From a virus: 64,000 bases of DNA. The position numbers and the translations under genes were made by a program. This document shows positions 22,987-60,824 of this stretch, piece after piece. The DNA is taken from IMG/VR virus record IMGVR_UViG_3300042907_001596, positions 1 to 64,000 of that record. One strand, given 5' to 3'. The notes under the pieces are model-generated. The model saw only the letters and a list, made by a program, of their open reading frames with translations, was not told where the DNA came from and searched no databases. Positions within the stretch are counted from its first letter, which is position 1. Each line of letters begins with the position of its first letter.

Positions 22987-23040
22987 GGAATATCTGCCCG
23001 CCTCCCGGCGTTCTTGTAGATGGAGGGGCCAGGTGGCTCC
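22987..23040 (+). promoter_or_regulatory. ECF-sigma-like promoter 1 with leader hairpin
   Basis: GGAATA (22987-22992), 16-bp spacer, CGTT (23009-23012). Downstream GGGGCC (23025-23030) pairs with GGCTCC (23035-23040) around AGGT, then GGGAGGG leads to ATG 23057. One of seven sites with identical spacing. It matches the actinobacterial SigR/SigH layout GGAAT-N18-GTT. It starts right after the long tail operon and would give the next genes their own transcription. Confidence 0.7.
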
Positions 23041-23056
23041 GCCGGGAGGGATCGAC

Positions 23057-23482
23057 ATGGGAAGGTTTGCCAAGCTCGACCTGGGTTGGTTCTGCTGCGA
23101 CGGTTGGCGTTGCGCGGATTGTCACCGGCTCAAAGAAGGATCTGGCGGCGTCTACAGCCTCTGCGTCCTAGGTGTGCTGTGCGGTGCTTGCGAGCACGAA
23201 GTGGAAGCCGGTATCCCGGCCCCGCCCGAACCACCCGCCCCCGAACTGAAGGGCGCAGCTATCGCGCTGGACGCCTACGGACTGGGCATCGTTCGATTCT
23301 ACGGCCCCGACGCCGAAGATCACGCGCTGGCCTTCCTAGCCCGCAAAGATGCTGAAGAGGTGCGGGAACTGCCCATCGACCGGGCCTACGAACGGCTGAT
23401 CGAAGCCCTCTACCCACAATGCGAACACGGCCTGGAACTCGCGCTGTGTGCAGGCCCCGGCCACTACCCGATGGATATGTGA
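23057..23482 (+). CDS. Cysteine-rich (zinc-finger-like) small protein
   Basis: 141 aa from ATG 23057 (GGGAGGG seven bases upstream), preferred to the in-frame GTG 23033, which lies inside the leader hairpin. N-terminal Cys pairs (CC..WRCADC and LCGAC) could bind zinc. The rest is charged, with another C...H...C cluster near the C-terminus. First gene after promoter 1. Stop overlaps the next ATG. Function unknown. Confidence 0.7.
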   Translation: MGRFAKLDLGWFCCDGWRCADCHRLKEGSGGVYSLCVLGVLCGACEHEVEAGIPAPPEPPAPELKGAAIALDAYGLGIVRFYGPDAEDHALAFLARKDAEEVRELPIDRAYERLIEALYPQCEHGLELALCAGPGHYPMDM

Positions 23483-23661
23483 TGAAAGCCTGCCGCGAGT
23501 GCTACCACCTGGCCGACGAGCCGAAGCCGCACAGCATCCTGTGCTCCAAACGGGAGCCGGTGACCTGCTCTCACTGCGGGGCGCAGTTCCGCATCCCCGG
23601 TCAGACGTACGGCTTCAGCCACTGCGACCTTCACGCGGAATACACCCCGCTGCCCGACTAG
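23482..23661 (+). CDS. Zinc-ribbon-like protein, 59 aa
   Basis: Start ATG 23482 overlaps the previous stop (TGATG). Two Cys pairs, CREC near the start and CSHC near residue 32, plus later His/Cys residues fit a compact zinc ribbon. Likely nucleic-acid or protein binding. No closer family recognised. Co-translated with the upstream Cys-rich gene. Confidence 0.68.
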   Translation: MKACRECYHLADEPKPHSILCSKREPVTCSHCGAQFRIPGQTYGFSHCDLHAEYTPLPD

Positions 23662-23687
23662 GGAATGTCCGGCCTCCCCGCTACGTT
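23662..23687 (+). promoter_or_regulatory. ECF-sigma-like promoter 2
   Basis: GGAATG (23662-23667), 16-bp spacer, CGTT (23684-23687), directly after the previous stop. The leader is short (about 12-15 nt) and lacks a hairpin; GGAGGG precedes ATG 23709. Confidence 0.68.
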
Positions 23688-23708
23688 GTAAGTAGTGGAG
23701 GGAGAAAT

Positions 23709-23918
23709 ATGGACAGGATCACTGAGCGCGACGTGGACGACCGTCCGTTCGACCACGACGGCGAACTCGTGACCGCCGAAGAGTGGTGGGAGCACTTCCG
23801 CGCCGAAGCCTGCTGCCGCGACTGGCACCAAGCCGCCGCACTGCTGTGCGGCTGCGGCGGGTCGGGCGCACTACCCAGCGGCATCAGCCGCTTACTGATT
23901 GGAGAGGAGGAGTTATGA
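23709..23918 (+). CDS. Small acidic hypothetical protein, 69 aa
   Basis: ATG 23709 behind GTGGAGGGAG. Acidic N-terminus with several Asp/Glu and Trp residues, then a Cys/Gly-rich segment (CGCGG) near residue 50. First gene of the transcript from promoter 2. The stop overlaps the next start (ATGA). No family recognised. Confidence 0.65.
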   Translation: MDRITERDVDDRPFDHDGELVTAEEWWEHFRAEACCRDWHQAAALLCGCGGSGALPSGISRLLIGEEEL

Positions 23919-24076
23919 CACCGCACGAAGCGGAAAAAATCCGCCGCCGGGATCGCACCCAGCGGGGGCGCTCCCCTGCCCAGCGCACTACGCGCAGCAA
24001 GGACAAAGGCCGCGCCGCCAAACGCCCCGGTAAGGGGGAGCGCAACGCATGGAAGAAAGCCCTCGTCAACGCCTGA
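23915..24076 (+). CDS. Very basic small protein, 53 aa
   Basis: ATG 23915 behind GAGAGGAGGAG, overlapping the previous stop. Over a third of residues are Lys/Arg with no hydrophobic core, which suggests nucleic-acid binding or an unstructured peptide. Its 3' end overlaps the next gene by 28 bases. Confidence 0.62.
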   Translation: MTPHEAEKIRRRDRTQRGRSPAQRTTRSKDKGRAAKRPGKGERNAWKKALVNA

Positions 24077-24264
24077 TCTGGCATCGACGCAAAGGGCTGG
24101 GTGGGCTGTACGCCCGCCTGCCCGACAAACAGTCTTACGACATCACCCTCGCCCCGGTCGACGGCTATTACCTGTCACTGGTGCTGCCCGACGACCGGCG
24201 GATCACGCTGGGTCACTTCGGCAAGCAAGTGGAAGCGAAGCGGTTCGCGGAAGCGAGGGAATAA
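24049..24264 (+). CDS. Hypothetical protein, 71 aa
   Basis: ATG 24049, GGGGGAG ten bases upstream. Basic N-terminus, then alternating hydrophobic strands (ITLAPVDGYYLSLVLPD). Resembles short phage proteins annotated only as hypothetical. The promoter 3 element begins inside its last codons. Confidence 0.62.
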   Translation: MEESPRQRLIWHRRKGLGGLYARLPDKQSYDITLAPVDGYYLSLVLPDDRRITLGHFGKQVEAKRFAEARE

Positions 24265-24283
24265 CCCCGGCACTCCCAGCGTT
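24258..24283 (+). promoter_or_regulatory. ECF-sigma-like promoter 3
   Basis: GGAATA (24258-24263) overlaps the end of the upstream gene. 16-bp spacer, CGTT (24280-24283). No hairpin in the leader; GGAGGGAAGGA leads to ATG 24310. Confidence 0.68.
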
Positions 24284-24309
24284 GGACTAGGTGGAGGGAA
24301 GGAAACAGA

Positions 24310-25626
24310 ATGACTGCCCCAATCATCATCGCCCCGGCCGACGAAGCCGTGGTGCTGCACATCCCCGCCTACCGGCGGGACGACCTCGACCACAAACTGG
24401 CTATCGCCAACCGCCGCTTAGAGCGCGGTGGTGTCGACGGCCGGTTCAGCTACGTCGCGGTGCCCGTTGAGCGCAAGATCCGCAAAGGCGCGATCGAACT
24501 GCCCGACGGCACTTTGTTCGGCGGCACCGAAGTGGTTGAACCCTGGCTGGACATCACGCTCGACGCCCTCAAGATCGGCGGCGGCGACCACACCTTCGTT
24601 GCGGCCCTGGTGGGCGAAGAGGCGGGTTACACCGTCCACTGCGCTCCCGGCCAAAGCCTCGACGGCTGGGTGCGCCCGCCGGTGGACGACATTCACTGCG
24701 ATCACTGCGGCCTGAAGCGCGACCGCCGCCGGATCTACATCGTGCGCGACGACCGGGACGGCAAGCTCCTCCAGGTCGGCCACTCCTGCATTGAGCTTTA
24801 CACCGGCCTCAAGATCAAGGGCCTGTGGGCGCTGGAGTTCGGCAAGGAACTGCGCGGCTGGGCCGACGAAGACACCGGCGGCGGCTTCGGTGACCGCGAC
24901 TACGGTGCGCCGGTCGACAAGGTGCTGGCGCTAGCCTTCGCTTTCGCTGACGAAGGCCGCAGCTACGTCTCCGTCAAAGCGGCGGAAGCCGGGGTGGGTG
25001 ACGCCACCGGCGGTCTGGTGCGGAGCGCACTGTTCTTCCCGCCCCGGCCTCCCCGCTCCGGCGCTAGCCCCCGCGAGCACGCGGCGTACGAAGACTTCCT
25101 CGCAAAGGTGCGCCTGGCTGAGGTCTTCGTCACCGACGCCGCCCTCATCGCCGGGATCCGCGAAGCCGCCGACACCTTAGAGGCGGGCACCGACTACGGC
25201 GACAACATGAAGGTCATCCTCGCCGGGGAGTACGTCTCCGGCCGCAACGTCGGGATCCTCGCCTCGCTGGTCGCGGTCTACGCCCGCGAGAAGGAACTCG
25301 CCGTCAAGCGGGAGCAGGAAGCGAAGTCGCCTCCGGCGAAGGGGTTCCTCGCGGAGGTCAAGGTGCGGGTGCGGGATCTGGAACTGGCCCTGCGGACGGT
25401 GAAGTCCTGGGAAGGCCAGTGGGGCTGGACGACCCTCCTGGTCGGCCGCGCCGCCACCGGGCACACGGTCAAGTGGTTCGCCTCCGGCTCGCTCGACCTG
25501 GAGCCGGGGGACACCCTCTTCCTGAAGGCCGCAACGGTCAAGGCCCACGAGGTCTACGAAGGTGTCGACCAGACGGTCATCACCAGGGGCGTCATCGACC
25601 ACGACAAGATGGGCGCGGTGGTGTAA
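24310..25626 (+). CDS. Zinc-finger plus OB-fold-like protein
   Basis: 438 aa. Around residues 134-165 is C-x2-C...H-x2-C-like spacing (CDHCGLKR... GHSCIELYTG), a probable zinc site. Residues ~345-435 look like an OB fold (alternating strands ending in DQTVITRGVI). Similar two-domain proteins occur in many actinophages without a known role. Single-stranded nucleic-acid binding is a reasonable guess. It has its own ECF-like promoter and a good ribosome site. Confidence 0.72.
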   Translation: MTAPIIIAPADEAVVLHIPAYRRDDLDHKLAIANRRLERGGVDGRFSYVAVPVERKIRKGAIELPDGTLFGGTEVVEPWLDITLDALKIGGGDHTFVAALVGEEAGYTVHCAPGQSLDGWVRPPVDDIHCDHCGLKRDRRRIYIVRDDRDGKLLQVGHSCIELYTGLKIKGLWALEFGKELRGWADEDTGGGFGDRDYGAPVDKVLALAFAFADEGRSYVSVKAAEAGVGDATGGLVRSALFFPPRPPRSGASPREHAAYEDFLAKVRLAEVFVTDAALIAGIREAADTLEAGTDYGDNMKVILAGEYVSGRNVGILASLVAVYAREKELAVKREQEAKSPPAKGFLAEVKVRVRDLELALRTVKSWEGQWGWTTLLVGRAATGHTVKWFASGSLDLEPGDTLFLKAATVKAHEVYEGVDQTVITRGVIDHDKMGAVV

Positions 25627-25640
25627 AACGGCAGAACCCG

Positions 25641-25685
25641 CCAGGGAAAGGGTGAAGTCAACGCCCACCCTGGAGGGTTCTTTTT
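25641..25685 (+). promoter_or_regulatory. Leader stem-loop before the LysB-glycosidase gene
   Basis: CCAGGG (25641-25646) pairs with CCCTGG (25668-25673); an internal GGGTG/CACCC pairing is an alternative. A TTCTTTTT run ends one base before ATG 25686. It could be an intrinsic terminator for the upstream gene or a 5' leader attenuator. GGGAAAGGGTGAAG is shared with the leader at 51145, which argues for a leader role. The upstream TGTAAAAC (25622-25629) is a weak -10 candidate. Confidence 0.45.
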
Positions 25686-27398
25686 ATGCCGCCCGCCTAC
25701 CGGCTTTACACCTTCGGTGGCACCGGAAACCTTAGCGTCGCGCTGGGGAAGACGGCCGTCGACCCCACTTACAGCACGGCGTCCGTCGACTACTCCCAGG
25801 CGGGCTACGGAGCGCAGATCGCCCAAGGAGTAAACCCCCGCCAGGTGGAGTGGGTGCCGGTGGCGTACGCCGCAGCGGCCTACCCGATGAATGTGTCCGT
25901 AGCGACCGCAGTCAACCGCACCGTCTCTATGATCCTCGCCAACCCCGGCAAGATCTTCCTGGCAGGAACCAGCCAGGGTGCGTACGTCACCAGCCAGCTT
26001 TGGCGGGAGTTCACCACCGGCCGTCTGGTGAGCCGCCGTGCCGACCTCGTCCGCATCTACCACTACGGCAACCCGCTGCGCCAAGCCAAGATGTTTCGCG
26101 GCACCCGTAACCCCGGTGGGCACGGCTGCGCCGCAGCGAACCTTCGGCTGACCAACACCGACCCGGCTGTCGTGTGGGAGTTTGCCAACCCCGGCGACCC
26201 GGTGGCAATCCAGTTTGACGACCAAAAGGGCACCTGGGCAGCGAGCTTCTTCGGCATCCTCAACCAGAACGCGACCAGCGTCTCGACGCTGGCGGCGCAG
26301 ATCTCCACGCTGCTCCTCAAACCCAACGCCAACCTATCCACGCTGGTGTCGCTCATCAACGACTTGATCAACAACATGCTCAACCAGACCGGCAAGCACA
26401 ACGCCTACCAGAACTTCTTCCCGTTCGGGGGGACGAAGAGTTCCGTGCAACTGGCGATAGACGACATCGCCACCATCGTCGGCGCACCGTCATCGAAGAC
26501 CCGGCATTACATTGCAATCCCTCCGGCGCTGTCGGTTGACGACCTCACGAAGACCTGCACCGGCATCAAAAACCTCAACATCGGATCGGTGCGGATCCCG
26601 GTGCCGTGGGGGGCAGCGCAGACTTCCGCGACGACCTTCGCGTGGACACCTTTCGACCAAGCCGTCAACGCCGCCCTCACCGCCGGACTGCGGATCCTGC
26701 TGGTGATCGCCCCTACCCGGCCGGAGTGGGCGACCGTCGCTACGTCCAACCTCAGCTTCGGCACCTTTGCCGCTGCTGTTGTGTCCCGCTACCGCCCCGG
26801 CGGCACCGGGGTCATCGCCAGCAACGCCGGGAAGGGTGCGGAGGAGTACCAAGTTTGGGACGAGCCGAACGTCATTGAGAACCTAACGACCGGCGATAAT
26901 CCAACCGCGTCAGGCTACGTCGCTTACCTTCGGGAAGCGTACGTCGCCATCAAGCGAGAGCAGCCAACCGCCACGGTGGTATTCGCCGGACTCCAAGCCT
27001 GCACCACCCAAACAATCGCCGCTGCCCGCCGGGTATCCCGCGCCGCCCTGACAACTTCCGCCAACATCGACCCCGTTACTTTCCTCACCGACTGCTACGC
27101 CGCCGGGGCAAAGCCTTTCTTCGATGTGATGGCCTACCATCCGCTGTCGATGGCGACTCGACAGAAACCTCAACCGCCCGCGCCGAGCGTCAACCTCATC
27201 GCCCAGTCCGACAGCATCAACGCCCTGATGGTGGCGAAGGGCGACGGCACCAAGCCGATGTACTGGACGCAAGTCGGCTACAACACCGCACTGATCACCC
27301 AAACCCAGCAGCAGGCATACCTGGACACGATGCGGTGGCTGGCGCACGAACGCACTTATGTGACCGGCATGGTCGTATCGGGATACCGGGATTTCTGA
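25686..27398 (+). CDS. LysB-like esterase fused to a glycoside-hydrolase-like domain
   Basis: 570 aa. Residues ~1-275 are an alpha/beta-hydrolase of the cutinase/LysB type: elbow GTSQG with Ser96, candidate Asp171 (NPGDP) and His238 (GKHN). LysB cuts the ester between mycolic acid and arabinogalactan in Corynebacteriales. Residues ~285-570 resemble a clan GH-A TIM barrel: WDEPN holds the candidate acid/base Glu393, but the nucleophile strand reads YWTQVG, with Gln529 at the expected Glu. The barrel may be a binding domain. No signal peptide. The stop overlaps the next LysB-like gene. Confidence 0.75.
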   Translation: MPPAYRLYTFGGTGNLSVALGKTAVDPTYSTASVDYSQAGYGAQIAQGVNPRQVEWVPVAYAAAAYPMNVSVATAVNRTVSMILANPGKIFLAGTSQGAYVTSQLWREFTTGRLVSRRADLVRIYHYGNPLRQAKMFRGTRNPGGHGCAAANLRLTNTDPAVVWEFANPGDPVAIQFDDQKGTWAASFFGILNQNATSVSTLAAQISTLLLKPNANLSTLVSLINDLINNMLNQTGKHNAYQNFFPFGGTKSSVQLAIDDIATIVGAPSSKTRHYIAIPPALSVDDLTKTCTGIKNLNIGSVRIPVPWGAAQTSATTFAWTPFDQAVNAALTAGLRILLVIAPTRPEWATVATSNLSFGTFAAAVVSRYRPGGTGVIASNAGKGAEEYQVWDEPNVIENLTTGDNPTASGYVAYLREAYVAIKREQPTATVVFAGLQACTTQTIAAARRVSRAALTTSANIDPVTFLTDCYAAGAKPFFDVMAYHPLSMATRQKPQPPAPSVNLIAQSDSINALMVAKGDGTKPMYWTQVGYNTALITQTQQQAYLDTMRWLAHERTYVTGMVVSGYRDF

Positions 27399-28555
27399 TG
27401 ACACAAAACAGCTACGGACTCTTTGACTCCAACTACGCCGCTAAGAAAGCAGCAGCATCGGTAGCCCGATGGAATGACGGCGTGAAGCGCCACACCCTTT
27501 ACACGGTGTGCGGCACCACCCAAGACGGCTGGGGCATCGTCAACATCCCGTACGAAGCCGAAGCCAAAGCGGCGCTCTACAAGCTGTACTACTCAATCGG
27601 AGGCACCGATCCTCCGCCGGTGGATGGAGAGCGCGGCCCGAACATCAACCTCATCAACACCGATGCCGTCGTCGGGGTGTACGCCGACCCGGCGCTGTTC
27701 AACTGGGTGCCGGTGAGCTACCCGGCGTCGATGCCGACTGGTGCGGGCCTTCTCGACAACGACTGGCAGCCGCAGAACATCTCTTTCCTCGACTCTGTCA
27801 CGCTGGGCGTGAAGGAACTGACCAGCCTAATCTTAGCCACACCGGGAACCTTCGCTCTGGTGGGAATGAGCCAAGGAGCGATGGTCATCACCAAAGTTTT
27901 GCACGCGATGATGACGCCGGGGACGGCGCTGTCAGCGCGGATGGGGGACTGCATCGCCGGGTTGGCATATGGAAATCCGCACCGCAAGCCGGGGGCGTCT
28001 TTCACCGGCGGCACCCACCTCAAGCTCAACGTCGGCGGGGTGAGTTATGTCGGCGGCGGGCTGTTCTCGTCGGCACCTCCCGCCACCACCCCGGCCGCTC
28101 TCGCCCAGAACATGCTGCTAGGAAATGGCAGTGTCACCACCCCCGACTGGTGGTGGGAAATGTGTACACCCAACGACTTCTTTGCCGACTCCCCGATCAC
28201 CACAATCGCCGGTGCGGTGATGGGAGAGATTGCCCGCGTCGCCGTCGGCATCAGGGGCGGCATTGACCCAATGGAGATGATGAGAAACATCGCGGGTGCG
28301 TTCCTCAAGCCGGGTGCGATCACCTGGGATGGATTTGCCTCGCTGCTCCAGACGCTGTCGCAGCCGAAAGTCACTAAGGTCATCACCGACTGGCTGGGGG
28401 CGTTCTCCGCACCGACACCGAACCCGCACATCTTGTACGGGGTGCTCTCGCCGCCGACCCTGCCGACCGGGCTGGGCCTCGCGCCGAAAGCAACGTACCA
28501 CGAAGTCGGCGTCGCTTACATGAACGCACGCGGCAGAGCTATCGCCCCGCGTTAG
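27398..28555 (+). CDS. LysB-like mycolyl-ester hydrolase
   Basis: 385 aa from ATG 27398 (TGATG overlap). Elbow FALVGMSQGAM gives Ser158. Candidate Asp260 (TPNDFF) and His344 (NPHILY), or a later His near residue 369, complete a triad. The N-terminal ~110 residues include a peptidoglycan-binding-like segment starting with YGLFDSNYAAKK. With an intact GxSxG and size near known LysB proteins, this is the best candidate for the phage lysin B. No lysin A was recognised in the window. Confidence 0.8.
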   Translation: MTQNSYGLFDSNYAAKKAAASVARWNDGVKRHTLYTVCGTTQDGWGIVNIPYEAEAKAALYKLYYSIGGTDPPPVDGERGPNINLINTDAVVGVYADPALFNWVPVSYPASMPTGAGLLDNDWQPQNISFLDSVTLGVKELTSLILATPGTFALVGMSQGAMVITKVLHAMMTPGTALSARMGDCIAGLAYGNPHRKPGASFTGGTHLKLNVGGVSYVGGGLFSSAPPATTPAALAQNMLLGNGSVTTPDWWWEMCTPNDFFADSPITTIAGAVMGEIARVAVGIRGGIDPMEMMRNIAGAFLKPGAITWDGFASLLQTLSQPKVTKVITDWLGAFSAPTPNPHILYGVLSPPTLPTGLGLAPKATYHEVGVAYMNARGRAIAPR

Positions 28556-29049
28556 GCTCCGCGAATCACTTCGTTGTAGTTGAAGTCGGTGCCTAGTGCC
28601 ACATGAATAGTGATCGGTGGCCCATCCAGTGCGTGCCGCTCTTCGTTGTACAACAGTGCCCAGCGGGGAATGGTGACTTCCCCCCGAACAAATCTCCTCC
28701 CCAGTTCGGTGAGCCGCCAAAACCCATTGCGCGGATTACCGTCGGCCTTCTCGCCGTCGCGCCCCTCAATCAAGCCCCAATGCTGAGACTTCACAGAGTC
28801 TCCACCTTTATCGCCGGTAAGGCTGGGAGTGTGATGCCAACCGTGAGGGTCTTCCCGATACATCGCCACCATTAGTCGGGCCATCTTGGCGTCGAAGGGA
28901 CGCACCGACATGGCGACATTTTGTCGGCAAGCGGGGCACTCCACCCCAGGATTGGCTTTCAGCCTGCCGGTGCGCCCACGCTTTGTTGGAATTAGCCGGT
29001 CAAGGATCCACCGGCGCACTTCGCCTAACGTCGTTTCGTCAGGGAACAT
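28552..29049 (-). CDS. Minus-strand hypothetical protein, zinc- and winged-helix-like
   Basis: 165 aa, start directly after the helicase stop (TAGATG), so the two form one minus-strand operon. A CPACRQ pair (~residue 38) could be half a zinc site. The C-terminal half (WRLTELGRRFVRGE) resembles the recognition end of a winged helix. It converges with the LysB gene, overlapping it by four bases. Confidence 0.7.
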   Translation of the reverse strand: MFPDETTLGEVRRWILDRLIPTKRGRTGRLKANPGVECPACRQNVAMSVRPFDAKMARLMVAMYREDPHGWHHTPSLTGDKGGDSVKSQHWGLIEGRDGEKADGNPRNGFWRLTELGRRFVRGEVTIPRWALLYNEERHALDGPPITIHVALGTDFNYNEVIRGA

Positions 29050-39623: not shown

Positions 39624-42600
39624 GTGACTCAAGTTAACTTGCATTGCCATTCCGAACATTCCTTTCTCGACGGCTTCGCCTCCGTCTCCTCCATCGCCCG
39701 CCGGGTGCGCGAAGTCGGCTCCGACGCTGTCGCACTGACCGACCACAACGAGGTCAACGGCCACCTGGCCTTCCAGAAGGCGTGCCGGTCAGAAGGCGTC
39801 CACCCCATTCTGGGCATCGAAGCCGACTGGGTCACCGACATCGGCTGGACGCGGGAGAACCTGAAGTACCCGTCGAACCGCAGTCACATCTGCCTACTCG
39901 CCGCCGACAACACCGGGCTGTCTAATCTGTGGGCGCTGGCGTCGATGGCGTACACCGACAAGTACCGCTACCACAAGCCGCTGCTCGACCCCGACTTGAT
40001 GCGCCAATACAGCAAGGGCCTCTACGCCTCCGACGGCTGCATGATCACCCAGTTCTCCCGGTACATCGAAGCCGGGGACGACACCGGTGCCCGCAATCAG
40101 TTGGGGATCCTGGCCGACATTTACCGCGACAACCTATACGTCGAACTGCACACCTGGCAGTTCATCGACGCCGACACCGATGAGAAGCGCCGCCTTAACG
40201 ATCTGATGGGCCAGATCAACCGGGCGAAGGTGCGCTTTGCCACCGAGATGGGGCTGCCGATGGTGGTGGTCAACGATTCCCACCACGCCTACCCCGACGA
40301 CTGGGACAAAAAGGAGTTGGTCTGGGACTTCAACACCCGCAAGAACCCCGACCAGTCGTCGGAGGACTACGGCCAAAAAGCCGACCACCTGATGGGCGGG
40401 GATGAACTGCACCAGTGGATGAGCCGCCACGGTATCTCTGCGGACATAGTCGATGAAGCCATCACCAACGCCGCCGCCATCGCCGCCCGCTGCACCGCTG
40501 AAATCACCCCCACCCTCACCATGCCCCGGCTGACCAAGACCGACGCCGACGACGTGGCGATGCTCATTGACTTCTGCGAGCAAGGCTTCGCCGCCAAAGT
40601 CGTCAACGCCGGAGTCGACCATCCTGAGCAGTACTATGAGCGGCTGGAGGAGGAGCTTCGGCTGGTCATCGACAAGCGATTCTCCGGCTACTTCCTGACG
40701 GTGCGCGATTACGTTCACGCCGCCAAGACCGGGTCGTGGAGTCAGTACGTCTCCGGCGGTCAGAAGCACCCGATGCTCGTCGGCCCCGGCCGTGGCTCCG
40801 CCGGAGGATCCTTGGTGGCTTACCTGCTGGGCATCACCACCATCGACCCGATCCACTACAAGTTACTCTTCAGTAGGTTTCTGTCGGCCAGCCGCAAAGG
40901 CTACCCCGACATCGACTGCGACTTCCCGCAGAGCCTGCGCCCCGGCATCAAAGACTATCTGGCTGCCCGGTACGGAGCCGACCATGTCTGCGCGATCGGC
41001 ACCCTCACCCGCAGCCAGCCCAAAGCGATCCTCAAAGATCTGGGGCGGGCCATGAAGATCCCGATTGCGGACGTGATCGCGATGGGCAAGATCATCGAAG
41101 GTGTCTCCGCGATCCAAGCCGACGACGGCACCGACGACGATGCGTCGTGGGCGGAGATCGTTGAACGCAAAGGTGGGGCGCTAGCGGAGTGGGCACGCAA
41201 ATATCCCATCCTGTTTGAGCGCATCAACGACATGGCCGGGATCGTTCGCCAAGCCGGGGTGCATCCGTCCGGCGTGGTGGTCAGCAACCTGCCGATCTTG
41301 GGGGCGCTGCCGACGCGGGTCAAGAACGCCACCACCGCGACCCAACTCGACATGAACGAGTGCGAAGAACTGGGCGCGGTCAAGCTCGACCTGCTGGGGC
41401 TGCGCCACCTCGACACCCTGATGGTGGCCCGCGACATGGTGTGGGATCGCCACGGCTTCTGGTTGGACTACGTCGGGGTGGACGACCACAACGAGTCGGG
41501 CACCATCAACTTCGGCCCCGATCAGTACGCCGACCCCGACATCTGGGGGCAGATCGACGCGGGCCAGACCGCCGGGATATTCCAGTTGGAGACACCGGAG
41601 TTGACCCGGCTGTCGATGGAGATGAAGCCGCGCAACGAAGTCGATGTGGCGGCGCTGCTGTCGATCGTGCGCCCCGGCGTGAAAGATGCCCACCTCGACA
41701 AAGCCTATCTGCGCCGCCGCCATGGATTGGATCCCGTCGTCTACGACCACCCGGCGATGCAGCCGATCACCGAAGAGACGTACGGGATCTTGGTGTATCA
41801 GGAGCAGATGATGCAGGCGGCACGCGACCTCGCCGGGTTCTCCGCCGACGACGCCGACGATTTGCGCAAGATGCTGGGCAAGAAAAATGCCGCCGCGATC
41901 ACCGCTTGGGAAGGGAAGTTCGTCGCAGGCTGCTTGGGCAACCCGGCGTTCCGCGACCACTTCGCCTCCGAACCGCAAGCCCGCACCGCGATCAGCCACA
42001 TCTGGTCATCTATCAGTGCCGCCGGACGCTACGCCTTCAACAAGTCCCACGCCGTCGGCTACGCCACCATCTCCTGCTGGGAGATCTGGACGAAGCACTA
42101 TTACCCGCAGGAGTACATCGTCGCCCTGATGGCGACCGACTCCGACAACATCAACCGCTACCTGCGAGAGGCCCGAAAGCGGGGCATCGCCGTGCTGCCG
42201 CCGGACATCAACACCTCCGGCCGCAAGTTCACGTTGGGTGATAACGCGATCCGTTATGGTCTGGACACTATCCGTGGCGTCGGCAACTCTGCCGTCTCCG
42301 AAATCCTGGCCCGCCGCCCCTTCGCGAGCTTCGATGACTTCCTGAGTCGGGTACGCACCAATGCGTGCGGAAAAACCCAGATAGAAGCCCTCATCAAGAT
42401 TGGGGCCTTCGACGCCTTCGGGGATCGCACTGCACTGATGACGGCGTACCACGACCGGCGGATCCTCGACAAAATGGCACCGGGCAAGCTCGCCAAGATG
42501 GACGCCGACGAGCAGGTCATCCACGTCGCCACCTGGCGGGCTAAGCACGCCGGGGAAGAGTCCTACGTTAAAGAGTTCGCCGTCCCCGACTTTGCCGACG

Positions 42601-46428: not shown

Positions 46429-46902
46429 ATGGCCCGCCGCCTCCCCGACGACCCGGTCAAACGCCGCCTCCAACACTTCAAGAGGCTCTACCAACACTTA
46501 GAGCACTGGAAAGTGTTGCTGGAAACCGGCGACATGAGTCACCTCATCACCGTGCCCGAAACCGGTGAGGAAATCTATCTTCTCGACCTGATGGTCGGCA
46601 TCGACTCGCTGCCACCCCGCCAGCGCGAAGCCTTTGAGTTGATCTGCCTACTGGGGTACACCGAAACCGATGCCACCCGCAAAATGTTGCCCCACTCCCG
46701 ATGGTCGACCCCGATACAGCAGTACGCCGATACCGCACTGGCCCGCATGGTGGCCGCATACGACGCCGCCCAAAGCGGCAGCTACACCCACACCGTCTAC
46801 ATCAAAAAAGGGGCCAAGCCTGTCGAGGGAGCTTGCCCCACTTCACCAGGAGAGCACGATGAAGAACGAGATCCCCGAAGCAAAGCTGATGCCCCTACTT
46901 AG
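46429..46902 (+). CDS. Sigma-70 region 4-like regulator
   Basis: 157 aa. Residues ~57-115 start with LPPRQREAFELI, the hallmark opening of sigma region 4, then YTETDATRKM and SRWSTPIQQYADTALARM as the two HTH helices, near ECF-type sigma-4 (sigma70_r4_2). No recognisable region 2, so alone it is not a complete sigma factor. It could be a co-sigma, anti-sigma-like decoy or class-specific activator. The phage also carries seven ECF-type promoters. The C-terminal ~40 residues are Lys/Asp-rich. Confidence 0.6.
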   Translation: MARRLPDDPVKRRLQHFKRLYQHLEHWKVLLETGDMSHLITVPETGEEIYLLDLMVGIDSLPPRQREAFELICLLGYTETDATRKMLPHSRWSTPIQQYADTALARMVAAYDAAQSGSYTHTVYIKKGAKPVEGACPTSPGEHDEERDPRSKADAPT

Positions 46903-54743: not shown

Positions 54744-54744
54744 G

Positions 54745-54954
54745 GTGTTGAGGACTCCCGGCCAGGAGTACACCGCTGAGTGCGATGACACGACTTCGCC
54801 GGAATGTGAACACACCACCAAGATCAGCGCCATCAACGACGCCACCGCGCTGTATCTGCTGAGCCGGAAAGGGTGGCTCACCACGGTGGTGTACGGGGCG
54901 GAAATCCGTAACGAACTGACCTGCCCTGCCTGCGCGTTGCGCCGCAATGATTGA
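54745..54954 (+). CDS. Hypothetical Cys-containing protein, 69 aa
   Basis: GTG 54745 (GTGTTG), weak ribosome site GAGTGAG. C....C.H near residues 13-22 and CPAC near the end may bind zinc. Unknown. Confidence 0.52.
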   Translation: MLRTPGQEYTAECDDTTSPECEHTTKISAINDATALYLLSRKGWLTTVVYGAEIRNELTCPACALRRND

Positions 54955-54958
54955 CAGT

Positions 54959-54980
54959 GTGGGTGTTAAAGTTATCCCAC
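54959..54980 (+). promoter_or_regulatory. -10 promoter flanked by an inverted repeat
   Basis: GTGGG (54959-54963) and CCCAC (54976-54980) flank TGTTAAAGT (54964-54972). The -10 sits inside a possible operator. The same GTGGGTGTTA begins the element at 49301. It lies 31 bases before GTG 55004. Confidence 0.5.
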
Positions 54981-55003
54981 AGCACGAATCCCAGGAGGAC
55001 ACG

Positions 55004-55186
55004 GTGAAGCAAGGGTATTGGGAGACGAGGGCTGCCCAGTTGGTGCAGCAGTCCTCCGACCACTCACCGCTGCTGAACCAATGGATTGAGCGGCTGGGTA
55101 AGTCTCACGACAGCCTCATCCAGTTGTTCATCCATTCCATAGGTGGAGACAATCCAAGTCGACACAACAACTCAAGGGAGCAGTAG
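55004..55186 (+). CDS. Hypothetical protein, 60 aa
   Basis: GTG 55004 behind CCAGGAGGACAC; an upstream ATG 54950 is inside the promoter. Helical, polar. It precedes a holin-like gene. Function unknown. Confidence 0.58.
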   Translation: MKQGYWETRAAQLVQQSSDHSPLLNQWIERLGKSHDSLIQLFIHSIGGDNPSRHNNSREQ

Positions 55187-55354
55187 ATGCTTCAGATCAT
55201 CATAGGAGTCACCCCACTACTCGCCGGGATCTGGCTGCTGTACCGCCACGACGAAGACACCCACATGCTGGCGTTAGGCATCATCGCATCGGTCATCCTG
55301 ATCGGGTGCGTTCTACTGCTCCTGAGCGGGGTAGGAAAGGTTCTGCAACCATGA
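55187..55354 (+). CDS. Two-helix membrane protein, holin-like
   Basis: 55 aa, start just after the previous stop. Two hydrophobic helices (~residues 4-19 and ~28-49) separated by an RHDEDTH loop give a class II holin-like topology. Coupled (ATGA) to the papain-like gene. A holin role is inferred, because no recognised lysin A follows. Confidence 0.6.
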   Translation: MLQIIIGVTPLLAGIWLLYRHDEDTHMLALGIIASVILIGCVLLLLSGVGKVLQP

Positions 55355-56049
55355 CACGCACCTTCGGTCGATTCGTTGAACACGACCCCCGCAGCCGGAT
55401 GTTCGCCGCCCCCACCCCCCCGACGAAGCGGTCGGTGTTGTGGGCGCACCACGGCCCAGTACTGGATCAAGGGGAGATGGGATCCTGCACCGGCAGTGCC
55501 GCCGCGCAACTGATCAACACCGATCTGTTCGCCGCCGTACGCCCGAAGGGATACCTCACCCAAAACGACGCCATCAAGCTGTACGCCAGAGCGACGATGC
55601 TGGACGACGCCCCCGGCACCTTCCCGCCGGACGACACCGGCTCCTCCGGTTTAGCGGTCGCTAAAGCCGGGGTGCAGATGAAGTACTTCGGCGCGTACAA
55701 GCACGCCTTCGGGTTCGACAAGTTCTGCGCCGTCCTGCAAACCAGCCCGCTGCTGGTAGGGACGAATTGGTACACGTCGATGAACAAAACCTCCACCACC
55801 GGGCTGGTGACTGTGCGCGGCCAACTGGAAGGGGGACACCAGTGGCTGGCAATAGGGGTGGACTACGAGCGCCAGCAGATCACCGGCCTCAACAGTTGGG
55901 GGCCGACGTGGGGAAAGAACGGCCGCTTCTTCCTGAGCTTCACCACGATGCGCAGGCTGCTGGCCGAACAAGGCGACGCTGTCGCCCCCACCCCGGCGGT
56001 GAAGCGCACCCTGCTTTCCTTCATCCTGCCGAAAAAGGTGACGCCATGA
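55351..56049 (+). CDS. Papain-like (C1A) cysteine peptidase
   Basis: 232 aa. Complete catalytic set: Gln40 and Cys46 in LDQGEMGSCTG, His163 in GGHQWLAIG, Asn181 in NSWG...WG. No signal peptide or long propeptide. A cytoplasmic protease could process phage proteins, attack host defences or, with the upstream holin-like protein, act outside the membrane. Target unknown. Confidence 0.85.
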   Translation: MTRTFGRFVEHDPRSRMFAAPTPPTKRSVLWAHHGPVLDQGEMGSCTGSAAAQLINTDLFAAVRPKGYLTQNDAIKLYARATMLDDAPGTFPPDDTGSSGLAVAKAGVQMKYFGAYKHAFGFDKFCAVLQTSPLLVGTNWYTSMNKTSTTGLVTVRGQLEGGHQWLAIGVDYERQQITGLNSWGPTWGKNGRFFLSFTTMRRLLAEQGDAVAPTPAVKRTLLSFILPKKVTP

Positions 56050-56447
56050 TCCGCAATGAACTGCTGTCGATGCTGGCCGATGACCGCATCACCATCCCGA
56101 CCGACCGGCTGCTGGAGCTACTGGGGGACATGAACTTCTTCGCGGACTGCCCCCCGCCGGAACTGGTCGCCATGACCGGCGACGACACCATGCGGGAACT
56201 GCTCAGTGCGATGTGGTCGGCCGGATACCGCGACGCCATGAAGGCGGTGATGACGCTAATCCCCAGGACGGAGCCGCAGAGCCGAGCCGAACTGATGGCC
56301 AAGCTCACCGACGCCCTCACGTCGTGGGAGAAGCACCCGAAGTACGGCGACAACGTGCCTCGCGGGGATGTCATCCAGGCTGCCGACGAACTGGCCACCC
56401 TCGCCGCCGAGATGCTGGACAAGCTCAAAGCCCCGATGGGAGAGTGA
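56046..56447 (+). CDS. Hypothetical helical protein, 133 aa
   Basis: ATGA overlap with the protease. Helical with several Met/Leu heptad patterns and a hydrophobic-free surface. Could be a protease adaptor. No family recognised. Confidence 0.62.
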   Translation: MIRNELLSMLADDRITIPTDRLLELLGDMNFFADCPPPELVAMTGDDTMRELLSAMWSAGYRDAMKAVMTLIPRTEPQSRAELMAKLTDALTSWEKHPKYGDNVPRGDVIQAADELATLAAEMLDKLKAPMGE

Positions 56448-56448
56448 G

Positions 56449-56586
56449 ATGGAAGATCGCAAGCCGCAAACCGCTGACCATCTGGTCGACCAGATCCGCA
56501 CCGTAGTCGACCAAGACATCACCGCCCCCAACGAGTGGTACAAGATCATCCTGGCGGTGCGCGACCTCGTCGGGGTGACCCGATGA
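56449..56586 (+). CDS. Small protein, 45 aa
   Basis: ATG one base after the upstream stop, GGGAGAG before it. Helical. Stop overlaps next ATG. Unknown. Confidence 0.52.
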   Translation: MEDRKPQTADHLVDQIRTVVDQDITAPNEWYKIILAVRDLVGVTR

Positions 56587-56846
56587 GCGAGCCGACCTTC
56601 CAGTACGCCGTCGATGTTGATGTCGACCTCGACCTGACGGCGTGCTGCTCGCTGAAGCACATCGTCAACCGCCGCCCATTCTGTAGCCGACCGGCGGAGT
56701 GGATCGTGATGCTTGGCTGCTGCGGCTACCGCAAGCTGGTGTGCAGTCACCACCGCAATGTGTCGGACAGTGTCTTCCCGCTGATGTTCCTCTGTACCCG
56801 CTGCCACGCTCAGTACCCGCCGACGGCGGCGGCGTGGAGGGTGTAG
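56583..56846 (+). CDS. Cysteine-rich protein, 87 aa
   Basis: ATGA overlap. Cys/His pattern CC...CS..C.....CC...CSHH ....CTRCH suggests a treble-clef-type zinc fold. Acidic N-terminus (VDVDVDLD). Confidence 0.6.
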   Translation: MSEPTFQYAVDVDVDLDLTACCSLKHIVNRRPFCSRPAEWIVMLGCCGYRKLVCSHHRNVSDSVFPLMFLCTRCHAQYPPTAAAWRV

Positions 56847-56878
56847 AGGGCGATGACCTCACCACTTTGGAGGTGAGG

Positions 56879-57025
56879 TTGAGCCGGTACATCACCGCCG
56901 ACGGAAAGATGGCGTTCCGCATGGTCACCCCCGACAAATACAACGTGGTGGAGATGCTGGGGCTGCTGGAGGCGGCGAAGTTCACGATCTTCCACGAGAT
57001 GTCCCCGAAGGATGACGATGACTGA
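56879..57025 (+). CDS. Small protein, 48 aa
   Basis: Start uncertain: TTG 56879 has GGAGGTGAG at good spacing; GTG 56873 is in the same frame. Ends in an acidic DDDD. Its end overlaps the next gene. Confidence 0.5.
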   Translation: MSRYITADGKMAFRMVTPDKYNVVEMLGLLEAAKFTIFHEMSPKDDDD

Positions 57026-57368
57026 CCTACGCACCCGTATCGCCGCCGCGTGCAGCGACTACTTCGCCATGCTCCGGCGGGATGACTACGTCGTTGACGG
57101 CGTCAACCCGCAGGAGGTGGCCGACATTGCGCTCCTGGCCGTGGACTTCGACGCCTGGCTGCGCTACGGCATAGAGCAGGGCTGGTGTGGCCCGCCGTGC
57201 TGCGTCCCGCACGACGGCATCGGCATCACCACAGCCGAAGAGGCTGAGTACGACGACGGCGGCGACCCTTGCTACCACGTCCTGCGGCTATACGCCGACG
57301 CCGACACCAAAGCGGCGGTGGAGGACAACCACGCTCCGTCCATCTGGCGGGCCACCAACCTGGCGTAG
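57018..57368 (+). CDS. Hypothetical acidic protein, 116 aa
   Basis: ATG 57018 (GAAGGA six bases upstream; ATG 57012 is too close). Acidic, aromatic, with CGPPCC near residue 56. Its last base is the first G of the promoter 4 element. Function unknown. Confidence 0.6.
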   Translation: MTDLRTRIAAACSDYFAMLRRDDYVVDGVNPQEVADIALLAVDFDAWLRYGIEQGWCGPPCCVPHDGIGITTAEEAEYDDGGDPCYHVLRLYADADTKAAVEDNHAPSIWRATNLA

Positions 57369-57420
57369 GAATATCTCCGGCCTTCCTGGCGTTATAGCTA
57401 GTGGAGGGGCGAAGTGCCCC
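57368..57420 (+). promoter_or_regulatory. ECF-sigma-like promoter 4 with leader hairpin
   Basis: GGAATA (57368-57373), 16 bp, CGTT (57390-57393). GGGGC (57406-57410) pairs with GCCCC (57416-57420). CGGGAAGGA then serves GTG 57437. Confidence 0.72.
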
Positions 57421-57436
57421 GCCGGGAAGGATCACC

Positions 57437-57847
57437 GTGGCTCCAAGCCTCGCGCACATCGACGCCATGTCAGCCAAGGCGAAGGCTGCCTTGCTGCGCC
57501 AAGACGGCGTGGAAGCCCTCAGTGCCCGGTTCATCGACTTCAAGGGTGAACCCGTACTGATCAAGCGCAGCGACGGCGTGACTGTCGTTCACTACAGGGA
57601 ACGCTACGCAGGCCAGTACATCGTCCTGTATGGCGAGAAGGATGGCCGCGTCGGTGTCACCCTCGCCACCTACAAGGTGAAGGTGACCCCCGGCCCCGCC
57701 AAGCCGGAGCGCACCGCCGACGGCGGCGTGATCTTCATGGTCAACTCCCTGTCGGTCGGCGTGAAGCGCATCAAGCGGCTGCCGCCGGGATTCCAAGGTG
57801 CGCTCAACGACGCGCAGCACGACTACGAAAGGGCGATGGAATCGTGA
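57437..57847 (+). CDS. Hypothetical protein, 136 aa
   Basis: GTG 57437 with GGGAAGG; the upstream in-frame ATG 57401 would span the leader hairpin. N-terminal helical, C-terminal beta-rich. First gene after promoter 4. Unknown. Confidence 0.64.
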   Translation: MAPSLAHIDAMSAKAKAALLRQDGVEALSARFIDFKGEPVLIKRSDGVTVVHYRERYAGQYIVLYGEKDGRVGVTLATYKVKVTPGPAKPERTADGGVIFMVNSLSVGVKRIKRLPPGFQGALNDAQHDYERAMES

Positions 57848-58005
57848 GAATCGGAAAAGCGGTCATCGGTAAGTGGGGTCGCATCGGCCTCGTCACCGAC
57901 CTGTACGGCCTGGAAGAGTTCGGCCGGATCTTTGAGTACGCCACCGTCACCTACGCCGAAGGTGACAGCGACGAGTTCCCGGTGGATGGGCTGGAGGTGT
58001 ACTGA
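57844..58005 (+). CDS. Small protein, 53 aa
   Basis: GTGA overlap. Strand pattern VIGKWGRIGLVTDLYG then acidic end suggests a small SH3-like barrel. Unknown. Confidence 0.55.
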   Translation: MRIGKAVIGKWGRIGLVTDLYGLEEFGRIFEYATVTYAEGDSDEFPVDGLEVY

Positions 58006-58307
58006 TGACCAAGCAGAATAGGCACAAGCACACCGGCCGCTACGCCCCGATCTACGAGCGCGGCTACCTAGCCTCGCTGGGCAATACCTACTTCCCCAAG
58101 CGCGACAAGTTCGGGTCGCCAGCGTGGATGGCAAAACTGCACATATACGGCACCACAGCCCCCACCAATCTCAGCGTGGATGACCTCACCCAGCGAATGG
58201 GCAAGCAAGCAGCGCAGGCTTTTGAAGACGGTTGGTTCGATGCCCTAGAGGACAACGTGAGCTACGAGGAGAGCTACGACGAATGTCGAGCAGTGGACAC
58301 CGCATGA
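58005..58307 (+). CDS. Hypothetical protein, 100 aa
   Basis: TGATG overlap. Basic Tyr-rich N-terminus, acidic helical C-terminus. Charge asymmetry suggests a binding protein. No family. Confidence 0.6.
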   Translation: MTKQNRHKHTGRYAPIYERGYLASLGNTYFPKRDKFGSPAWMAKLHIYGTTAPTNLSVDDLTQRMGKQAAQAFEDGWFDALEDNVSYEESYDECRAVDTA

Positions 58308-58561
58308 TGGTGCAACTGGAAGTCCAGTTCAAGACCGCACGGCCAATCGGCCAAGAGGTTGGGATGGAGATGTGGCTTCTTGGCGACTACTTCGTATCGA
58401 CCGGGGCCTGCGCCTACATGCTTCAGGCAAAGGGTGAGGCGGAATCCCTCACCGATGCCGTCGAGGGGCTGGTGGCTCAGATTGGCGAGGTTATTGGATC
58501 CCCCGGTGGCTGGGATGTGGTGGTTACGAAAACCAAGGCAGAGATGGTAGAACAATGCTAG
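58304..58561 (+). CDS. Hypothetical protein, 85 aa
   Basis: ATGA overlap (ATG 58304). Mixed alpha/beta, hydrophobic core visible, no Cys motif. Its end overlaps the XRE regulator gene by seven bases. Confidence 0.58.
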   Translation: MMVQLEVQFKTARPIGQEVGMEMWLLGDYFVSTGACAYMLQAKGEAESLTDAVEGLVAQIGEVIGSPGGWDVVVTKTKAEMVEQC

Positions 58562-58779
58562 GCCGCGCCATCGCCGCTCTGCGGATAGAGCGCGGGATGA
58601 GTCGCAAAGACCTCGTTCGTGCCGCCGGGATCTCCTATCCCTACCTGGCCGAAGTGGAGAAGAGCATCAAGCTGCCCTCGTCGGCCATGCTGGGCAAGCT
58701 GGCTGCGGCACTTCACGTCATGCCCTCCGAACTCTTAGAGCGGGCAGAGCAGATTGCCGCCGACCCCAGGAATGTCTGA
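58555..58779 (+). CDS. XRE/Cro-type HTH regulator
   Basis: 74 aa. Residues ~5-60 are a Cro/CI HTH: RIERGMSRKDLVRAAGIS (helices 1-2) and YLAEVEKSIKLPS (recognition region). DNA-binding transcriptional regulator, probably of nearby promoters. No repressor-type C-terminal domain, so it is a small modulator, not a CI. Confidence 0.85.
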   Translation: MLGRAIAALRIERGMSRKDLVRAAGISYPYLAEVEKSIKLPSSAMLGKLAAALHVMPSELLERAEQIAADPRNV

Positions 58780-58790
58780 AAGGAAACGCC

Positions 58791-58997
58791 ATGATCACCC
58801 TCACCATCACCCACGCCGATGACCGTAAGACCCGGCGGGTCACCGACCATGCCACCGCCGAAGAGGCGCAGGCCGTCCTGGTTGCCTGGGCCGACGGCGA
58901 GAAGATCAGCCCCACCAGCCCAACGACGGGAACGGTCGGGGAACGAGAAGATCGCTCGTTCTGGTATTACTCCATCGCGGAATATCAGAGCGCCTGA
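58791..58997 (+). CDS. Hypothetical protein, 68 aa
   Basis: ATG 58791 behind GAAAGGAAAC. Beta strand start, helix, then Trp-Tyr-Tyr near the end. Promoter 5 overlaps its last codons. Confidence 0.56.
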   Translation: MITLTITHADDRKTRRVTDHATAEEAQAVLVAWADGEKISPTSPTTGTVGEREDRSFWYYSIAEYQSA

Positions 58998-59029
58998 CGG
59001 CGTTGTAACAAGTGGCGGGATCATCCGCC
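58979..59029 (+). promoter_or_regulatory. ECF-sigma-like promoter 5 with leader hairpin
   Basis: GGAATA (58979-58984), 16 bp, CGTT (59001-59004). GGCGGG (59014-59019) pairs with TCCGCC (59024-59029). The leader continues into GGAAGGAGACACCC (59031-59044). Confidence 0.7.
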
Positions 59030-59044
59030 TGGAAGGAGACACCC

Positions 59045-59296
59045 ATGGAGTATCGCGTCGTTGGCCACGAGGTGTGGCTGTTCTACGCCGACGGTGGCGA
59101 GGAACGCTTCGCTGTACTGGAAGGCCCGAACGGTGCTGCGTTGGTAGCACGGCTGCTCAACAAAAACCTGGCTGAGATCGCCGCAGAGAAGTTGTCTGCC
59201 GAACAACTCGCCCTCGACCGCGCCCGCTACGAAGAGATGCGGGCTGAAATCGTGCGGCGCGAACGGCGTGAACGCTATGGGGTGAAGTCGGAATGA
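59045..59296 (+). CDS. Hypothetical protein, 83 aa
   Basis: ATG 59045 with the conserved GGAGACACCC leader, a perfect 14-nt complement to the 50611 loop. Beta-rich start, long charged helix after residue 40. Stop overlaps next ATG. Confidence 0.62.
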   Translation: MEYRVVGHEVWLFYADGGEERFAVLEGPNGAALVARLLNKNLAEIAAEKLSAEQLALDRARYEEMRAEIVRRERRERYGVKSE

Positions 59297-59457
59297 CCTC
59301 CACCATCCCTATCACCCACCTCAAGCCCTACGAGCGGCTGTCCAACGGACGCCTCGTCGTCGCCGTTACGGTCGAGCGCGACACCGTCACTGTGACCCTC
59401 AAGGGCGGCAAGCCCATCGCCTACCCCGCCGACTACGAAGTGGATGTGAGGATATGA
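59293..59457 (+). CDS. Small beta-rich protein, 54 aa
   Basis: ATGA overlap on both sides. Repeated strands (RLVVAVTVERDTVTVTL), possibly a small barrel. Unknown. Confidence 0.55.
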   Translation: MTSTIPITHLKPYERLSNGRLVVAVTVERDTVTVTLKGGKPIAYPADYEVDVRI

Positions 59458-59813
59458 CCAAGCCAATGGGCGTCTGCCCCGCCTGCGAGGGCAGCACCCG
59501 CCGCCCGGTGCCGGAGGCTTCCCGGCGCTACATCAAGCACAACGCCAAGTGGGGCCATTGGGGTACCGCCGGATACCTGCCCCCCGGCCCCGGCCCGTAC
59601 GTCCAAGGACAAGGCTGGGAAGAGGGCGGCACGTTCCCTTGCAACAACTGCGGCGGGCAGACGATGTTCTCCAAAGCCACCGGCGAGGTGCCGCTGCGCC
59701 CCGACGGCACACCGTGCCTGCACGAGTACACCCACAAGACGACCCGCAACTGCTATCACGAATCGACGTGCAAGCACTGCGGCTTCCACTACGCCATCGA
59801 CAGCGGCGACTGA
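59454..59813 (+). CDS. Zinc-binding protein, DnaJ-type Cys repeats
   Basis: 119 aa. CPAC (~residue 8), CNNCGG (~63) and CKHCG (~109) resemble the CxxCxGxG cysteines of DnaJ-like zinc domains, with Gly/Pro-rich linkers. Not linked to the J-domain protein at 38109, but could act in the same chaperone system. Unproven. Confidence 0.6.
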   Translation: MTKPMGVCPACEGSTRRPVPEASRRYIKHNAKWGHWGTAGYLPPGPGPYVQGQGWEEGGTFPCNNCGGQTMFSKATGEVPLRPDGTPCLHEYTHKTTRNCYHESTCKHCGFHYAIDSGD

Positions 59814-59853
59814 CCCAGGTTTAGCAAGGGATGTAACGCAAATGCTAAGAAGA

Positions 59854-59910
59854 CCCGGCAGCAGGCCGGGAACGAGGTTGGCGGGCCAACGCCTCCGTAA
59901 CCAGTCGGAG
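59854..59910 (+). other. Three adjacent small hairpins in a non-coding gap
   Basis: CCCGGC/GCCGGG (59854-59870), GTTGG/CCAAC (59877-59890) and CTCCG/CGGAG (59893-59910) lie side by side in the 190-bp gap before promoter 6. It may be a structured RNA or a terminator of the 59454 operon. No T tract. Confidence 0.4.
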
Positions 59911-59934
59911 TGTTCCCACCCGTCATCCCAGAAC

Positions 59935-59988
59935 GGAATAATCACCCCTGATCTGGCGTTATAGCTAATGGAGGGGCCGGGTGGCCCC
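59935..59988 (+). promoter_or_regulatory. ECF-sigma-like promoter 6 with leader hairpin
   Basis: GGAATA (59935-59940), 16 bp, CGTT (59957-59960). GGGGCC (59973-59978) pairs perfectly with GGCCCC (59983-59988). CGGGAAGGG serves ATG 60005. Confidence 0.7.
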
Positions 59989-60004
59989 GCCGGGAAGGGT
60001 TCTC

Positions 60005-60160
60005 ATGCAGAAGCCATGGCAGCAGATGCACGTTCGCAACGGCGTGCGTTTCCAGCCCAAGTGCCCTTGTGGCTGGCAGGGTCGTCCGGTGGCCGATCGG
60101 GCGAGGGCGGAGCGCGAAGCCGACCGCCACGGCCCCGGTTGCGGTTGGGGTGATGAGTGA
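60005..60160 (+). CDS. Small Cys-containing protein, 51 aa
   Basis: ATG 60005. CPCG and CGWG flank an Arg-rich helix, a possible zinc-binding nucleic-acid contact. Stop overlaps the next ATG (TGATG). Confidence 0.56.
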   Translation: MQKPWQQMHVRNGVRFQPKCPCGWQGRPVADRARAEREADRHGPGCGWGDE

Positions 60161-60384
60161 TGGCTGACCCCAACGCCAAGTACGAAGCGGAGCTTCGGGA
60201 GCAGCTAGCCGAAGCCATCGACTACGTCGCAAAGTCGGCTCTCGCCCTGGAAGAGGCCAAAGGCCACCTGGAGCGCGACCTCGACCGCCTGGAGAAGATC
60301 AAGAGGAAGCTGGACGGCCTCGCCGCCCTGAAGGCCCGAGAGGACGCCTACTGGGCTGAGGTCGACGCCAAGGAAGGAGCCTGA
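60160..60384 (+). CDS. Coiled-coil protein, 74 aa
   Basis: ATG 60160 (GTG 60157 also possible). Nearly whole protein is one charged heptad helix (EAKGHLERDLDRLEKIKRKL). Possibly a scaffold or oligomerisation partner of its neighbour. Confidence 0.6.
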   Translation: MADPNAKYEAELREQLAEAIDYVAKSALALEEAKGHLERDLDRLEKIKRKLDGLAALKAREDAYWAEVDAKEGA

Positions 60385-60385
60385 G

Positions 60386-60778
60386 ATGGCGCGGAAGATG
60401 ACCCGGCACGGCGTCACCGTGGTCGGTGGTGGCGGCTTCTACGTCACACTTGACGGCCGGTTTGAGGTTGTTAAGGTTGACGACTTTGAGACATCCTGCG
60501 ACGAACCGCACCCTGTGAAGCTGCCGCGTGAGAAGTGGTTCATGGACGGCGACTACGACAGCCGTGGCCGGTGGGTCACCAAGCTCAAGAAGGGGTACCG
60601 CTGCGAAGGCGGCGGGACGCACTTCTATGTGGCCTGGCACATCTGGGATCGCCAGAACGGCTGGGACGGCGAGTATGCAGAGGGCACCGGGCCGGGTGAG
60701 TTCGACACCTTCGATGAAGCCATGCGCGACCTGGCCGACATCCTCAAGCGCGAGGCAGCCAAGCACGCGGTGGAATAA
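60386..60778 (+). CDS. Hypothetical protein, 130 aa
   Basis: ATG one base after the upstream stop, GAAGGAGCC before it. Beta-rich, aromatic, ends in a charged helix. Promoter 7 overlaps its final codons. Unknown. Confidence 0.62.
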   Translation: MARKMTRHGVTVVGGGGFYVTLDGRFEVVKVDDFETSCDEPHPVKLPREKWFMDGDYDSRGRWVTKLKKGYRCEGGGTHFYVAWHIWDRQNGWDGEYAEGTGPGEFDTFDEAMRDLADILKREAAKHAVE

Positions 60779-60824
60779 TCCGCCCCGCCTCAGCGTTCTA
60801 CTAGATGGAGGGGGCAACCCTCCA
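60772..60824 (+). promoter_or_regulatory. ECF-sigma-like promoter 7 with leader hairpin
   Basis: GGAATA (60772-60777), 16 bp, CGTT (60794-60797). TGGAGGG (60806-60812) pairs with CCCTCCA (60818-60824), loop GGCAA. AAAGGAG serves ATG 60840. Confidence 0.72.

Follow-up and report, generated by a model that had tools for sequence, protein, structure and literature searches.

Predicted SigH/SigR-type promoters repeated before small accessory genes of a phage point to a host extracytoplasmic function sigma factor as their probable reader

The viral contig IMGVR_UViG_3300042907_001596 carries, in front of many of its small genes, an element made of two short blocks held at one distance, GGAAT(A/G)-N16-CGTT. 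Are these elements promoters and, if so, which sigma factor reads them? The stretch analyzed here (the window) comprises the first 64 kb of this 150,440-nt contig. Seven sites with an exact 16-bp spacer had originally been predicted in it, with the argument that such invariance is hard to attribute to chance. All seven are present on the + strand with this spacing (Table 1), and the argument from chance holds: 0.18 sites are expected per window and none of 100 dinucleotide shuffles reached seven, while spacings other than 16 bp gave at most stray matches. The whole-genome scan that the original prediction called for revealed 25 exact sites on the + strand of the contig and none on the - strand, and a control pattern read backwards had no match in the full contig. 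Profile scanning detected a 26th site, GAAATA-N16-CGTT, at contig position 67729, and scored the real sites at 27-55 versus a maximum of ~1 in Markov shuffles. When only GGAA and CGTT were fixed, positions 5 and 6 read TA in 24 sites, TG in one and another pair in one, indicating that the hexamer is not an artefact of the search pattern. CGTT was found in 25 of the 27 occurrences of GGAATR-N16-NGTT. The extended consensus is GGAATA-N16-CGTT-NTA-NNNRR-TG-GAGGGG, with partly conserved C-rich bases in the spacer.

The layout had been likened to that of promoters of the extracytoplasmic function (ECF) sigma factors SigR, SigH and SigE; we found that the SigH/SigR geometry stands, including T+1, G+2 and the purine at position 6 of the -35 element, whereas SigE is disfavored. 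The M. tuberculosis SigH consensus is GGAAYR-N17-GTT, with 17 bp in 19 of 25 consensus-matching promoters (PMC4803200), and in C. glutamicum a T at position 5 is exclusively the sigma-H form (PMC10012870). All 25 phage sites read GGAATR, with a purine at position 6 in each, and the distance from hexamer to GTT is 17 bp in 25/25, equal to the M. tuberculosis SigH consensus; the -10 element likewise conforms to (c)GTT, with a C before GTT. In the sigma-H open complex the -35 element spans -34 to -29, the optimal spacer is 17 bp, T-10 and T-9 are read, and the core-recognition guanine, G+2, enters a pocket of the core enzyme (PMC6411747). We placed sites picked on their -35 and -10 elements alone in this register in five phages: this one, the sister phage CAIPNE010000714.1, the Bixzunavirus NoodleTree, the IMG/VR fragment G001 and the unrelated contig G002 (IMGVR_UViG_3300036790_000048). 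T+1 was found in 23/25, 21/22, 16/16, 12/13 and 6/8 sites, respectively, and G+2 in 25/25, 22/22, 12/16, 12/13 and 8/8. Because the sites were picked without regard to these bases, the near-invariant TG provides independent support for a promoter used by a bacterial-type RNA polymerase core with sigma-H geometry. Since +1 itself is a T, the true start base may be a purine at -2/-1. The phage sites thus resemble M. tuberculosis SigH promoters in the GGAAYR hexamer, the 17-bp distance, the C before GTT and the G+2 of the core pocket (PMC4803200; PMC6411747), and differ from that set in that all carry T at position 5, the C before GTT is invariant, T is found at +1 and the transcript would begin with a fixed GGAGGGG. 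The GGAAT form and the spacing are also those of Streptomyces SigR and Corynebacterium SigH (GGAAT-N18/19-GTT; PMC10012870); downstream, the C. glutamicum consensus is GTTgaa and that of the phage GTT(R)TA. Together, these features strongly support the assignment of the sites as ECF-type promoters with SigH/SigR geometry.

The positions of the sites are in part as first described. Instead of two accessory gene blocks, the sites precede small accessory genes in four blocks of small genes, at ~23-24, 57-68, 78-87 and 105-109 kb, reaching well past the window. None lies inside the tail-gene stretch (before 23 kb), the replication-gene stretch (within 24-57 kb), the head/tail/lysis stretch (87-104 kb) or the portal/capsid stretch (112-150 kb). 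That the sites stand just before genes was borne out, with start codons, as given by our own simple gene caller, mostly ~46-52 or 66-73 nt past the site start; so was their overlap with the end of the previous gene, whose stop codon falls within the -35 hexamer (GGAATAA) in 14 of 25 sites. Twenty of the 25 are located within 25 nt of a gene end, versus 6% of the genome. The leaders take two forms. Short leaders place the start codon ~21-26 nt after GTT, with GGAGG itself as the Shine-Dalgarno sequence; long leaders place it 39-48 nt after GTT, and their GGAGGGG pairs with a CCCTCC-like arm further downstream, which is followed by a second, AAGGAG-like sequence. The perfect stem averaged 5.8 bp versus 3.9 in shuffled tails (combined p ~5e-13 for 31 leaders of two phages, not all of them independent), and at the site at 58979 both arms are changed, GGCGG/CCGCC versus GGAGG/CCTCC. 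Comparison of leader minimum free energy with dinucleotide shuffles gave a weak effect (mean z -0.76), whereas the targeted stem test was clear.

Exploring related phages, we found that DnaE is 53% identical to that of the Mycobacterium phage Phrappuccino and 45-46% identical to those of the Gordonia phages Pupper and Skog and of Bixzunavirus. The sister phage (149.6 kb; 138 shared genes at 62%) carries 22 CGTT sites and a few with another first base, and G001 (32 shared genes at 52%) carries 14 NGTT sites. The sites keep to orthologous genes: 14/17 in the sister phage versus 23/138 for all shared genes, and 7/8 in G001 versus 11/32. The sister contig is filed in a metagenome-assembled genome named Gammaproteobacteria, likely a binning error. 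Three sites were detected in a further contig, G003. Among the distant relatives of the Bixzunavirus (Bxz1) group, NoodleTree carries the GGAATG-N16-NGTT form at 16 sites; its repeats, GGAATGA...CGTTATAC...AGTG, share the register and the core-recognition bases and differ in carrying GGAATG rather than GGAATA and a CA-rich leader in place of the hairpin. A representative Bixzunavirus element occurs at 1405 places in 190 phage records, all of Mycobacterium phages. NoodleTree has annotated tRNA genes; none was found in the contig of our phage or in the sister contig. The unrelated G002 has eight sites. Palindromes such as CTGACGGTCGTCAG lie in most of its promoter spacers and resemble repressor operators set within the ECF promoters.

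The scan of Phrappuccino, Pupper and Skog revealed no such site. The cassettes of the two Gordonia phages follow a similar plan, i.e. promoter, 5' hairpin, Shine-Dalgarno sequence and gene, with a promoter that, unlike that of our phage, is of the sigma-A type (TTGACA-N17-TATAGT). Forward sigma-A matches number 22 in Pupper and 13 in Skog versus fewer than 2 expected, and the Pupper promoters listed are followed by a leader with a GC-rich hairpin and a Shine-Dalgarno sequence, as read by eye in Pupper only. In a DnaE tree the lineages bearing the motif do not form one group, implying either two separate gains of the trait or its loss.

To whom does the sigma factor belong? A search with PF04542 (sigma region 2) gave no match in the phage, although a divergent sigma could escape Pfam and part of the genome may be missing from the record, and this domain was also not found in near relatives. 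The only sigma-like gene detected, g047, matches Sigma70_r4_2 weakly (E 1.4e-5 per genome; 20.5 bits, under the curated cut-off). Phrappuccino, Pupper and Skog all retain the g047 family, which occurs with and without the motif and so does not track promoter type across the relatives. Within the reach of Pfam and of the record at hand, a complete phage-encoded sigma was rejected on these grounds. With no region-2 domain found and g047 present also in motif-less relatives, we favor a host SigH-class factor and consider it probable that the sites are SigH/SigR-type ECF promoters which a SigH-class sigma of the host reads on host RNA polymerase. The proposal that the phage routes these genes through a host stress sigma is thus the best explanation of the sequence features, with SigE disfavored as its agent; both transcription start at the sites and the host origin of the sigma are what we infer from them. 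Infection, through envelope, thiol or DNA stress or through a phage product, would free SigH from its anti-sigma factor, and SigH would then switch on the accessory genes independently of sigma-A. The leader would protect the mRNA and serve its translation, the ribosome binding GGAGG at the very 5' end of the short form, while the long form would place the 5' hairpin GGAGGGG/CCCCTCC ahead of the second Shine-Dalgarno sequence.

Several observations weigh against a host SigH. The G/C preference reported for SigH at -5 is seen in 18/25 sites here and in just 7/22 in the sister phage (elsewhere in 11/13 in G001, 8/8 in G002 and 12/16 in NoodleTree). A phage relying on SigH would also have to release it from the anti-sigma factor that normally holds it. 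Furthermore, G002, unrelated to our phage, combines the same promoter type with a weakly sigma-like open reading frame (237 amino acids, positions 41586-42299, - strand). The last observation also speaks for a phage-encoded sigma or specificity factor, g047 by itself or together with an unrecognized partner, that has converged on or descended from SigH specificity. In its structure model, g047 is similar to region 4 domains of ECF factors such as 3vep (1.7 Å over 58 columns; Foldseek E above 1), and its Phrappuccino copy is annotated as a putative RNA polymerase sigma-70 factor. Against such a factor stand the missing sigma-2 domain, the retention of g047 in phages without the motif, and the finding that only three genes, of unknown role, are common to the phage and NoodleTree and missing from the motif-less phages; we regard it as unlikely. 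The neighboring conserved gene g046 gave a poor model (predicted local distance difference test score, pLDDT, 65) with no solved relative. Phages with a promoter type of their own for one gene class are known from T4 MotA middle promoters and from the sigma systems of SPO1, T4 gp55 and phiEco32; our phage differs from these in that no complete phage sigma was found and the -10 element is not of the sigma-70 type.

A bolder version of the host reading, which we hold to be rather doubtful, is that the host oxidative-stress sigma has been made the phage's dedicated sigma for accessory genes, freed from its anti-sigma factor by a phage protein, e.g. g047 as a region-4 mimic. The weak best sequence matches of g047 among solved structures are to PhyR, an anti-anti-sigma factor (profile E 0.04), a lead only for SigH release. 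It is improbable, to a slightly greater degree, that the reader is another ECF factor of the host with the same class of recognition, either SigE or a SigR-like paralogue. GGAA and GTT elements are used by several ECF factors, and phage adsorption could stress the envelope, the stimulus of SigE; yet T at position 5 and a purine at position 6, present in all sites, are SigH preferences, while SigE needs a C at position 5 (GGAAC) and favors a pyrimidine at the next (PMC4803200; PMC10012870), which disfavors a SigE-type promoter. Still harder to sustain is recruitment of the host sigma-A holoenzyme by a phage activator bound to GGAAT in place of a -35 element, as with T4 MotA. The Bixzunavirus sequence after CGTT is often TATAC, superficially like a -10 element, and Pupper and Skog do use sigma-A promoters; in our phage, however, the base equivalent to the flipped -11 is T rather than A in all sites, and at -7 most sites carry C, G or A where T is expected (register from PMC6411747). 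An A at column 26, which TATA requires, is found in only 10/25 sites, against an invariant CGTT, and strict sigma-A matches (TTGAC/TANNNT) in the contig show no excess (2 versus 2.6 expected); the sigma-A reading was rejected on the register and on this missing excess. Least credible of all are operators, recombination sites or RNA leader elements, comparable to mycobacteriophage stoperators and start-associated sequences, since the rigid 17-bp two-block layout, the SigH consensus, the core-recognition bases and the fixed start-codon distance are promoter features and the spacer diverges between the sister phages while -35 and -10 stay, even though the conserved GGAGGGG and hairpin fall in the would-be RNA and C-rich spacer bases are partly conserved.

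The genes behind the sites (Table 1 for the window) include homologues of Ku and of L5 gp82 and a PNKP-type phosphatase, and most others are without known role. The site at 24258 is retained before orthologs in the sister phage and G001. The Ku homologue lies at contig positions 80873-81664, and its orthologs in the same two genomes are also preceded by a site. Elsewhere in the contig, positions 73959-77891 encode a 1310-amino-acid protein with about four GNAT acetyltransferase matches, which adjoins a 1353-amino-acid protein with a DnaJ zinc finger and one GNAT match. An Rfam int-alpA RNA match (window positions 62457-62529; 38 bits, cut-off 35.8) is located just upstream of the 1069-amino-acid gene g086.

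Table 1. Predicted ECF-type promoters (P1-P7) of the window and the sigma-like gene g047.
Feature	Position	Strand	Description	Context and gene predicted to be driven
P1, ECF-type promoter	22987..23027	+	-35 GGAATA, spacer, CGTT, TG, GGAGGGG	Directly 3' of the 1919-aa (amino acid) tail gene; g018, start 23033 or, better, ATG ~44 nt after GTT
P2, ECF-type promoter	23662..23702	+	GGAATG; short leader, GGAGG as Shine-Dalgarno	g020 (23709-23918)
P3, ECF-type promoter	24258..24298	+	Short leader	Overlaps g022 end; g023 (24310-25626)
g047	46429..46902	+	157 aa, sigma region-4-like (phrog_2931)	Only sigma-like gene found in the phage
P4, ECF-type promoter	57368..57408	+	Long leader with hairpin	g071 (57437-57847)
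P5, ECF-type promoter	58979..59019	+	Leader hairpin GGCGG/CCGCC	g077 (59045-59296)
P6, ECF-type promoter	59935..59975	+	Long leader	Probable start codon ~44 nt after GTT
P7, ECF-type promoter	60772..60812	+	Hairpin GGAGGG/CCCTCC	g081 stop codon within -35; g082 (60840-61157)

In the literature searched, which left most subscription journals outside its coverage, we found no report of ECF promoters in these phages, and as far as this literature and our knowledge go, genome-wide phage promoter arrays for a host ECF stress sigma have not been described. Given that the element occurs in the 190 Bixzunavirus-type records, of phages growing on M. smegmatis, the idea is directly testable in sigH deletion strains. 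The sigma-A promoters of the Gordonia relatives suggest that the sigma class used by this phage family can be exchanged while the plan of the cassette is kept. Were the host oxidative-stress sigma captured as a dedicated factor, the accessory genes would respond to the stress or defence state of the host; and if a host SigH does read the sites, phage gene expression would be linked to host redox stress.

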